IMG/VR virus record: IMGVR_UViG_3300027758_000019
Location: 1-34,199 of that record
Source: a virus
Length of the DNA stretch: 34,199 bases
Direction: 5' to 3' (one strand)
The notes below the pieces were generated by a model, which made no database searches, was not told the origin of the DNA, and worked only from the letters and a program-made list of their open reading frames with translations. This document shows positions 1 through 12,622 of the stretch, piece by piece. Position 1 is the first letter of the stretch. Every line of letters begins with the position of its first letter. The translations under genes and the position numbers were made by a program.

Positions 1-730
1 AATACTGATCGTGGATATTTGGCATTTTTGCAGAAAGATACCACTCTACGTGCCAAATGGTGTTGATTTCGTCAACCTGTAAATTAAAATTTGGATAGCT
101 TGATTTGTCAGGATTATCACTCATTAGAGTAACAAAACCGCGAGTAACACGATTCTTTACTCTCTTTAAATATGATCTTCCCTCTTTATCGGACACCACA
201 TATACATGTTCGTTTCGCATGTGCTCCCATTCATCGGGACTGAGTAAACGAATAACAACAAAGCCGCTATCTTGTAGAGTTGGCGACATGCTTTCTCCTT
301 TAACTCGTACACAAATATGGCGACCTTTACTTAGTAGGTTTTCCGGTAATCGTATGGTGTCCTCTGCTGTAATGTAATCAGGATTATCGTATCCACCGTT
401 ACCCGCAGCCACATTGATATCGGTTACGGGAATTGACGATGGGTGCAAATTCATTTCAGGTTCTTCAATCAGCATAATTTCTCCCTCTTGCTGATTATAG
501 CCATTACTAAAAGGCTCACCCTTTCCAGTTATTAGCCAATTCAAATTAAGATTATCGCATTTTGCGAACACTAGATCGTAATTAATGGTGTTTCTAGACC
601 TCCATGATGAGATAGTATTGCGTTTTACGTCGAAAAACTCCGCAAGGGCGCTATCTGTATCTAGCTTATACACAGACTTTAATCTATCAATTATTTCGGA
701 TGTCGCAATTTGAGACTCTTTTTCTTGCAT
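1..730 (-). CDS. LexA/CI-like phage repressor (partial, runs off left edge)
   Basis: I read 243 codons from ATG at 730 leftward with no stop, so the C-terminus lies outside the window. Residues about 10-70 form a CI-type helix-turn-helix (SALAEFFDVKRNTISSW, then NLNWLITGKGEPF). Residues about 100-240 form an S24 peptidase domain with the nucleophile Ser147 in GESMSPTL and general base Lys189 in SYLKRV. An Ala-Gly pair (VAAG, 109-110) is a plausible self-cleavage site. The family represses early phage genes and is inactivated by RecA-stimulated autocleavage. It is divergent from the early operon and shares an operator with it, as Mu c does with ner. Only about 20-40 residues are probably missing, judged from family length. 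Confidence 0.93.
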   Translation of the reverse strand, partial: MQEKESQIATSEIIDRLKSVYKLDTDSALAEFFDVKRNTISSWRSRNTINYDLVFAKCDNLNLNWLITGKGEPFSNGYNQQEGEIMLIEEPEMNLHPSSIPVTDINVAAGNGGYDNPDYITAEDTIRLPENLLSKGRHICVRVKGESMSPTLQDSGFVVIRLLSPDEWEHMRNEHVYVVSDKEGRSYLKRVKNRVTRGFVTLMSDNPDKSSYPNFNLQVDEINTIWHVEWYLSAKMPNIHDQY

Positions 731-3061: not shown

Positions 3062-3964
3062 ATGATTACTACAGAAGTAAAAAACAGAATTATTGAGGCG
3101 ATGCACGCCTCCCGTAAGAATTACTCATCTAATGCGAAGTTCGCCACTTCAATAGGCATTAACGCTGCTCAGCTTACAAGAGTGTTTAAAGGCGAATTAA
3201 ATGGTGTTTTATCCGATCCTAAGTGGTTAACCATTGCCCGCCGTTTAGATGTACACATTGGCAATACTGCCGAAATGGTAACCGCTGCCACTCCTGTATA
3301 TAAATACATTAACGGACAGTTGGCAACATGCCAGCAATTTTCGTTAAGTGGAATGCTTTGCGACGATGCCGACATAGGAAAAACATACGCAGCCAAGTGT
3401 TTTGTTAAGACTGCAAAAAATGCCGTGTATGTTGATTGCTCTCAGGTAAAAACCAAACAAAAGTTAGTTCGACACATTGCCAAGGAATTGGGTTTAACTC
3501 ATTCGGGCAGATACCAGGACATATACGAAGATGTTGTTTACTATCTGTGCTCAATTTCTTACCCGCTTATTATTTTGGACGAGGCTGGCGATTTAGATTA
3601 TGGTGCATGGTTGGAGCTTAAAGCACTTTGGAATGCTACGGAACGCCTTTGCGGATGGTACATGATGGGAGCCGACGGTTTAAAGGACAAAATTGAGCGC
3701 AACATGGGTCGCAAAAAGGTGGGTTATGTAGAGATTTTTAGCCGCTACGGTGGAAAGTACGAAAAAGACGGTCGAATTAAATTGCAAAAGGTGACTCCCG
3801 ACGGTGGCGAGGAAAAGAAAAAATTCATTCGCCAGCAAGTATCGATGATTGCCAAAGCTAACGGACTTGATAATGTACAGCAAATTTACGCTCAAACAGG
3901 CGGTTCTCTTCGCCGAATTTACACCGAAATACAGAAACGTAAAGCACAGGAGGCAAAGGCATGA
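3062..3964 (+). CDS. Mu B-like transposition ATPase (AAA+)
   Basis: 300 residues. The N-terminal helix-turn-helix (KFATSIGINAAQLTRVFKGEL, about 26-46) matches the MuB pattern. It is followed by a P-loop at 101-108 (DDADIGKT, lacking the usual first glycines) and Walker B at 169-174 (LIILDE). MuB binds target DNA, stimulates MuA and gives target immunity. The C-terminal helical part (about 250-300, QTGGSLRRIYTEI) fits the family. It follows transposase A directly and overlaps the next gene by ATGA, so translation is probably coupled. Confidence 0.9.
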   Translation: MITTEVKNRIIEAMHASRKNYSSNAKFATSIGINAAQLTRVFKGELNGVLSDPKWLTIARRLDVHIGNTAEMVTAATPVYKYINGQLATCQQFSLSGMLCDDADIGKTYAAKCFVKTAKNAVYVDCSQVKTKQKLVRHIAKELGLTHSGRYQDIYEDVVYYLCSISYPLIILDEAGDLDYGAWLELKALWNATERLCGWYMMGADGLKDKIERNMGRKKVGYVEIFSRYGGKYEKDGRIKLQKVTPDGGEEKKKFIRQQVSMIAKANGLDNVQQIYAQTGGSLRRIYTEIQKRKAQEAKA

Positions 3965-11723: not shown

Positions 11724-11754
11724 TTGCCAAATTAAATTAATTCCCTTATATTTG
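11724..11754 (+). promoter_or_regulatory. Promoter of the structured leader and regulator gene
   Basis: TTG at 11724-11726 (within TTTTG) and TATATTTG at 11747-11754 are spaced exactly 20 nt and match the Bacteroidota sigma-A consensus. The expected start, about 5-7 nt after the -7 box, coincides with the first strand of the closing stem of the leader RNA at 11758. The promoter begins right after the stop of the secreted-protein gene. Confidence 0.75.
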
Positions 11755-11757
11755 TCC

Positions 11758-11910
11758 TGACTTGTAATTCTAACAGTCTGGGGCAATCCACAGACAAATA
11801 TTTTTTTAAGATACGAAGAGGTATCTATGGTGGTACGAGAGGAAACGACCGTACTGATTCTGCGCCCCGCGTTTGAATTGCAAGTCACACCTAAGGATGC
11901 CTCTTCCTTT
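11758..11910 (+). ncRNA. Structured leader RNA with two pseudoknots (unassigned class)
   Basis: Closing stem P1: TGACTTGTAATTC (11758-11770) pairs with GAATTGCAAGTCA (11875-11887), 13 bp with one G-U. Inside are P2, GTCTG/CAGAC (11776-11780, 11791-11795), P3, AGATAC/GTATCT (11809-11814, 11821-11826), and P4, GTACG/CGTAC (11833-11837, 11850-11854). The P2 loop GGGC (11781-11784) can pair with GCCC (11864-11867). The P3 loop GAAGAG (11815-11820) is fully complementary to CTCTTC (11901-11906). It has its own promoter and no terminator, so it is probably a 5' leader of the gene at 11933. I cannot place it in a known RNA family. Confidence 0.7.
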
Positions 11911-11932
11911 GTATAATTAAAATTCTTTTTAT

Positions 11933-12622
11933 ATGACTTGCAAAAAGAATGAAAAGCAAACTATGAGTTTGCAGGTTACGGAAGGTTTGACTGTAACAAT
12001 TCTGCCTAGTTCAGATCATGAGTTTTTAATGCCAACCAAACAGGTAGCCATAGGTTATGGTGTAAGCCATAGCACTGTAAATCGGCACAGACTTGACCAC
12101 AAAGACGAACTTATTGAAGGAAAGCATTTTTTGAGCGCTGTGAGTATTCCTCATAGTGCTGGTAAAGGATCTACCCGAAATACAGTTTGGACAAAACGGG
12201 GTATTGTTAGACTTGGTTTCTTCATTAAAAGCGAAAATGCAAAACTATTTCGTGATTGGGCAGAGGATCTTGTGATTAATCAAGGTGAAAAAAAGCTCAT
12301 TCCTAAAAAGAACTACCTAGCCATTGCGGAAAATGCAGACACTGAGCTTAGCGATTTAATTGAAAGTGCAGCAATTGCTTGCGGAAGTGCTACTAAGCTA
12401 GGCAAGCGCCTTGGTATTTCACCCTCTATTTTTAGCCATTTAGCTCGCCGCCCATGGCTGGTAAGCGATGAGCGAATTAAAGCCATTAAAATTGGCTGTA
12501 AAAACATTATATCTCGCGGCAGCGGTATTGATACTGCCACACTCGACGCACTAATGAAAGTTGAGGATAACGAAGCCCGTGTTTATTTGTACACTCAATT
12601 AAAGAAAGGAGGTTTGTTATGA
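11933..12622 (+). CDS. Phage DNA-binding regulator (antirepressor-like)
   Basis: 229 residues. The N-terminal domain (EFLMPTKQVAIGYGVSHSTV, then ELIEGKHFL, then TVWTKRGIVRLGFFIKSENA and FRDWAEDLVI) matches a regulator type common in Bacteroidota phages and related to Rha/antirepressor N-terminal domains. A second DNA-binding part (about 140-190) reads ATKLGKRLGISPSIFSHLARRPW. Starts at 11933 and 11963 are both possible. The first lies in a segment complementary to the leader RNA's closing stem. It is a candidate late activator or lysis-lysogeny switch. It overlaps the next gene by ATGA. Confidence 0.75.
   Translation: MTCKKNEKQTMSLQVTEGLTVTILPSSDHEFLMPTKQVAIGYGVSHSTVNRHRLDHKDELIEGKHFLSAVSIPHSAGKGSTRNTVWTKRGIVRLGFFIKSENAKLFRDWAEDLVINQGEKKLIPKKNYLAIAENADTELSDLIESAAIACGSATKLGKRLGISPSIFSHLARRPWLVSDERIKAIKIGCKNIISRGSGIDTATLDALMKVEDNEARVYLYTQLKKGGLL

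Follow-up and report, generated by a model that had tools for sequence, protein, structure and literature searches.

A probable C4-type antisense RNA, divergent from c4-2, upstream of an antirepressor-like gene in a Mu-like phage of Bacteroidota

What kind of RNA is encoded by a promoter-led segment, rich in complementary words, that lies in front of a regulator gene in a phage genome? The window, by which we mean the whole stretch of DNA analysed, comprises 34,199 nucleotides (positions 1 to 34,199 of IMG/VR record IMGVR_UViG_3300027758_000019). The first-pass annotation described, at 11724-11910, a promoter and a single closed domain with a 13-bp closing stem, three hairpins (P2, P3 and P4) and two loop pseudoknots, could match it to no RNA family and considered that it could be a riboswitch or a class of phage regulatory RNA. 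We find that the element diverges from a kind already known and is most probably neither a riboswitch nor a new class. With a probability of about 0.86, judged from sequence comparisons, it belongs to the C4-type antisense RNAs, as a divergent relative of c4-2, and would control the antirepressor of the phage.

The phage is Mu-like and its host belongs to Bacteroidota. A PHROG search identified transposition genes resembling MuA and MuB, and head genes of Mu type are present. The gene for a CI-type repressor is truncated by the left end of the window, and between it and the early operon there is a palindrome, TTTGTACCATTAACGGTACAAA (754-776), likely an operator. A human-gut phage contig, L008 (MT836083.1), encodes MuA and MuB proteins 45% and 52% identical to those of the window and many of its early and head genes match also, yet c4-2 RNA is undetectable there; with no c4-2 match and no core it was rejected as a C4 homologue. 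The features that concern us are as follows.

2..730, minus strand: CI-type repressor (Phage_CI_repr and Peptidase_S24; Pfam PF07022, 2.8e-11, and PF00717, 5.6e-13)
11724..11754, plus strand: Bacteroidota-type promoter, read from sequence (TTG at 11724-11726, 20-nucleotide spacer, TATATTTG at 11747-11754)
11758..11774, plus strand: a1 box, TGACTTGTAATTCTAAC, complementary to C4 loop a'; expected 5' end of the transcript
11776..11795, plus strand: leader hairpin GTCTG...CAGAC, carrying the b1 box TGGGGC (11779-11784)
11810..11825, plus strand: hairpin GATAC-GAAGAG-GTATC (P3), competing with part of the C4 closing stem
11815..11906, plus strand: C4-type (c4-2-like) antisense RNA domain, assigned by RF02944 match, fold and closing-stem covariation
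11831..11856, plus strand: predicted C4 core hairpin (P4), GGUACG...CGUACU around GGAAACG
11864..11869, plus strand: C4 loop b' (GCCCCG), pairing with b1
11875..11887, plus strand: C4 loop a' (GAATTGCAAGTCA), antisense address word complementary to a1 and a2
11933..12622, plus strand: antirepressor-like gene, 229 amino acids (PHROG 373, 2127, 463, 63 and 2011, anti-repressor)
11934..11943, plus strand: a2 target box, TGACTTGCAA, overlapping the antirepressor ATG at 11933-11935

The promoter had been proposed earlier and its elements are confirmed at these positions. A TAnnTTTG-like box lies directly upstream of a1 in 24 of 30 c4-2-type loci (not all independent, many being from related genomes), the strict form of the box having a background rate of 0.9% in shuffles, and a1 therefore lies where the 5' end of the RNA is expected. 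The 189 nt leader folds with a z score of -2.96. An intrinsic terminator following the b1 hairpin was considered and rejected, the T-run being missing in two homologous leaders, L010 and L066.

The three longest uninterrupted complementarities in 11741-12030 are 11758-11770 with 11875-11887, 11815-11826 with 11895-11906, and 11878-11887 with 11934-11943. When 11757-11950 was shuffled 400 times with dinucleotides preserved, the score of the best was reached once and those of the second and third never, which bears out the earlier view that so many pairings exceed chance. Stems P2, P3 and P4 are all present in the sequence, but the pairings have to be re-assembled. The supposed 13-bp closing stem is real as a complementarity, with 13 uninterrupted pairs that include one G-U, although it does not close a stable domain and represents a1 bound to a'. 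The P3-loop pairing of GAAGAG with CTCTTC also exists, as the outer half of the true closing stem rather than a pseudoknot, and the P2-loop pairing of GGGC with GCCC is re-read as b1 with its complement in loop b'. The stable domain is 11815-11906, closed by 12 pairs (GAAGAGGUAUCU/GGAUGCCUCUUC). The P3 strand 11821-11825 also belongs to this closing stem and each excludes the other there. P3, which leaves the rest of the closing-stem strand exposed in its loop, may be a folding intermediate; it is unchanged in homologue L026, reads GATAT/ATATC in L063 (one double change) and is replaced by an analogous 8-bp hairpin in L010, but is not obvious in L066 or in canonical c4-2.

Folding 11813-11910 alone returns the C4 architecture, with a minimum free energy of -34.7 kcal/mol and a z score of -4.10, a value reached by none of 200 shuffles. 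In this fold the core UAUGG...GGAAACG...CCUAA is present, loop a' is partly single-stranded and the closing stem is shared with the c4-2 model. The core hairpin is nearly invariant in the homologues and its support is therefore conservation, not covariation.

The claim that no RNA family matches does not hold. At gathering thresholds the window leader has zero matches in Rfam, but with an E-value threshold c4-2 (RF02944) matches 11818-11905 from end to end (model positions 1-79 of 79) at 26.3 bits, under the family gathering threshold of 41 bits. The E-value is 0.003 when 501 nt are compared with 4227 Rfam families, and a search of the whole record with this single family gives one match only, at 4.9e-5. 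Two relatives also fall below 41 bits, L026 with 32.0 and L010 with 35.8. As the score lies under the curated threshold we do not file the element as a member of RF02944 and refer to it as a divergent c4-2-like variant.

Core-pattern scans recovered four close-variant leaders beyond the window (L010, L026, L063 and L066; L063 and L066 were recognised by core sequence), so that the close variant is known from five leaders in all. A further leader, L013, is a c4-2 homologue at 63 bits. L026 is JAESQY010000121.1, labelled as an Aliivibrio metagenome-assembled genome; its promoter is of Bacteroidota type and the assignment of the contig to Aliivibrio is probably wrong. Other routes to homologues gave little. 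The antirepressor protein as query identified one near-identical contig, IMGVR_UViG_3300006467_000064, with no useful variation, together with proteins of L003-L006, where no C4 leader occurs, and had no match in the genome contig set. MuA as query again found only IMGVR_UViG_3300006467_000064, BLASTN against phages gave zero matches, and the variant-core pattern is absent from 395 Bacteroidota genomes. Pattern matches in L009/L011, L014, L015, L017, L021, L064 and L065 were judged to be chance or coding and were excluded.

Compensatory changes occur in these homologues, the reverse of the outcome that the first-pass annotation had named as its refutation. With the elements aligned by hand, 79 of 84 cells of a1:a' are paired over five homologues and six pairs carry double changes; when the partner is slid by 1-3 positions only 17-29 cells pair, with 0-1 double changes. 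For a2:a' the counts are 45 of 50 with three double changes, against 7-15 with 0-2 in the slid control, and for b1:b' they are 30 of 35 with three. The closing stem, counted in the window, L026, L063 and L066, is paired in 42 of 44 cells with eight double-change pairs. That of L010 is fully re-coded (AATCCCCC/GGGGGATT) and was left out of the count, its register being off by one. The address word of L026 offers the clearest example. There, GACTTG has become GCATTG in both a1 and a2 with CAAGTC becoming CAATGC in a', and the a2 change alters the start of the encoded protein from MTC to MHC. In L063, the change of CTTG to CTTC is matched in a1, a' (CAAG to GAAG) and a2. Three positions have thus changed in all three copies at once. 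The a2 word of L066 is weak, at 6 bp.

The a2 word over the start codon was, with the weak Rfam match, overlooked in the earlier description. It forms a perfect 10-bp duplex with 11878-11887 of a', without G-U pairs and with a predicted energy of -20.9 kcal/mol. In a crude test, the loops of the window, L026 and L063 are each the best binder of their own target; those of L010, L066 and L016 are less specific. The C4 RNA is encoded upstream of, and co-oriented with, the antirepressor-like gene, the product of which matches five PHROG anti-repressor families (E-values from 4e-8 to 6e-3) and has no match in Pfam. The suggestion of a phage regulatory RNA with its own promoter in front of a regulator gene is in this respect supported.

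Could these pairings serve a different purpose? The same 10-nt strand is contested by a1 and a2 on one transcript, and a leader switch acting purely in cis, riboswitch- or attenuator-like and with no C4 acting in trans, might let a' pair with a1, leaving the start codon free, or with a2, hiding it. The competing P3 hairpin with its complementary loop, kept in L026 and L063 and with an analogue in L010, would suit such a device. However, the C4 domain folds stably on its own, its P1/P7 relatives are trans-acting after processing by RNase P (PMC5320573), and nothing conserved besides the C4 core resembles a ligand pocket, so we consider a cis-only switch unlikely. The riboswitch interpretation offered initially is not supported, as what varies and co-evolves here is a set of address words for the element's own leader and the downstream start codon, not a ligand pocket, and no riboswitch family of Rfam matches the window leader.

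Two further explanations are highly improbable. Three near-identical 10-nt words (TGACTTGYAA), one of them inverted, are arranged around a promoter, as DNA operators for a phage repressor might be, but the word varies between loci while the complementarity persists, its 10 matches in the window with one mismatch allowed are no more than chance (6.7 expected), no copy occurs at the CI region and the surrounding C4 fold would be left unexplained. It is just as hard to credit that the pairings are by-products of a small protein starting at ATG 11827 (MVVREETTVLILRPAFELQVTPKDASSFV). That reading frame (11827-11916, MVVREETTVLI...) is open, and all five relatives share almost the same first 11 codons, but the conserved portion coincides exactly with the C4 core RNA, beyond which indels break the frame in relatives and the stop is not conserved, and the stems vary through compensatory changes; the frame was rejected as a gene. 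A C4-type RNA accounts for the element better: it behaves as one by all of the sequence tests applied, and we strongly infer an antisense function for the domain.

The layout is not confined to this phage. Core-pattern scans and a family search revealed canonical c4-2 loci in the phylum Bacteroidota, most of them scoring 55-78 bits; for loci that share the three-word layout the range is 43-78 bits. Of 395 genomes drawn evenly from the phylum, 10 carry c4-2 above the cut-off, with up to six copies each. A word of at least 6 nt common to a1, the loop (as reverse complement) and a2 occurs in 27 of the same 30 partly related loci, compared to 45 of 832 mismatched loop and flank combinations; for words of at least 7 nt the values are 22 of 30 and 8 of 832. 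The antirepressors behind the module differ in type, being AntA/AntB in L010, KilAC ANT in L067 and identified by PHROG in the window. Elsewhere the gene encodes a 77-residue or other small protein with no Pfam match, and in L063 and many canonical loci the next gene encodes a small protein of unassigned function, not an antirepressor. Canonical c4-2 is present in two to six copies per genome in L033-L061 (G029, G174, G178, G210, G226, G249, G289, G320 and G328), the copies within one genome differing in address word and many preceding a conserved 77-residue protein (MSTNTLSKETE...FYWLNELAEILDPYL) that has no Pfam or NCBIfam match. In L028 a c4-2 RNA of 78 bits (3725-3781) precedes an ECF-type sigma factor gene, with the a2 word just 5' of the start codon; the phage module may have been captured there for another regulator. 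It is tempting, though slightly short of an even chance in our estimation, to regard c4-2-type RNAs across Bacteroidota as a portable module with an address word in three simultaneously rewritable copies, at the transcript 5' end, in the antisense loop and at the start codon of the gene that follows, the cargo genes being unrelated and each copy silencing its own independently.

How does the element compare with known systems? C4 RNA has been described chiefly in P1/P7 and Proteobacteria and belongs to a small number of antisense regulators of lysogeny that are encoded on the same strand as their target. The c4-2 family (clan CL00128), reportedly described by Weinberg in 2017, shares with the window the full 79-position match, the UAUGG/GGAAACG/CCUAA core and the closing stem, and its canonical copies have the same order of promoter, a1, C4 and a2. 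The loop from GGAAAC to CACC is, however, about 43 nt in the window variant, with an extra b' hairpin, compared to about 29 nt in c4-2, and the a1:a' word extends to 13-17 bp rather than 7-8. In P1/P7, C4 controls antirepressor synthesis, its variable loops a' and b' binding the target mRNA, and RNase P cuts it from a longer transcript at the 5' end of the closing stem (PMC5320573; PMC8201110) to give an RNA of about 77 nt (PMC5320573). Similarities with this RNA (RF01695) are a small RNA upstream of a co-oriented antirepressor, a'/b' address loops in a closed domain, target words by the translation start and a specificity derived from the short, variable a' (PMC5320573). The AntA/AntB type of the L010 gene is a further likeness. 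There are differences. The phage and promoter of the window are of Bacteroidota type. P1/P7 C4 has a b target near the ribosome-binding site, whereas here b' pairs with b1 in the leader and no b2 word was found beside a2 in the window; L066 has a possible one. In the window it is the start codon of the antirepressor itself that a2 covers, the C4 target in P1/P7 being at the icd gene upstream of the antirepressor. A candidate RNA from gamma-Proteobacteria and phages, c4-a1b1, has been grouped with c4 antisense RNA (PMC2864571). Our comparison with it is by name and description. Judging by that name, its motif would consist of a1 and b1 words upstream of c4, and in the window the 13-bp stem and P2-loop pairings of the first-pass annotation are pairings of such words.

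In the mechanism that we infer, the promoter would give one transcript that contains the a1/b1 leader, the C4 domain and the antirepressor. The domain would expose a' (UUGCAAGUCA) for pairing with a2 (UGACUUGCAA), and so C4 RNA very probably pairs across the translation start of the gene that follows, preventing antirepressor synthesis. With translation blocked, the CI-type repressor, the presumed target of the antirepressor, would stay active and lysogeny would hold. An antirepressor-like gene at 11933 and a CI/S24 repressor in the same window are as predicted by the P1/P7 model. C4 would probably be freed from the precursor by a cut 5' of the closing stem, as by RNase P in P1/P7, and then act on other copies of the transcript. 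Pairing of a1/b1 with a'/b' may keep uncleaved or fresh C4 inactive, or buffer C4; on an uncut transcript C4 might stay inactive until it is cut or a1 is displaced. The a1/b1 words pair more strongly with the same loops, a1:a' being at least as strong as a2:a', and the net effect in cis is consequently not obvious.

The finding places the C4 logic of P1/P7 in a Mu-like phage of Bacteroidota and defines a divergent C4 variant that is missed by the Rfam threshold. The simultaneous changes in three copies of a word put antisense targeting of a start codon to an evolutionary test of unusual directness. The finding also leads to the prediction that the system would serve in Bacteroidota as a translational off-switch that is orthogonal and easy to reprogramme.
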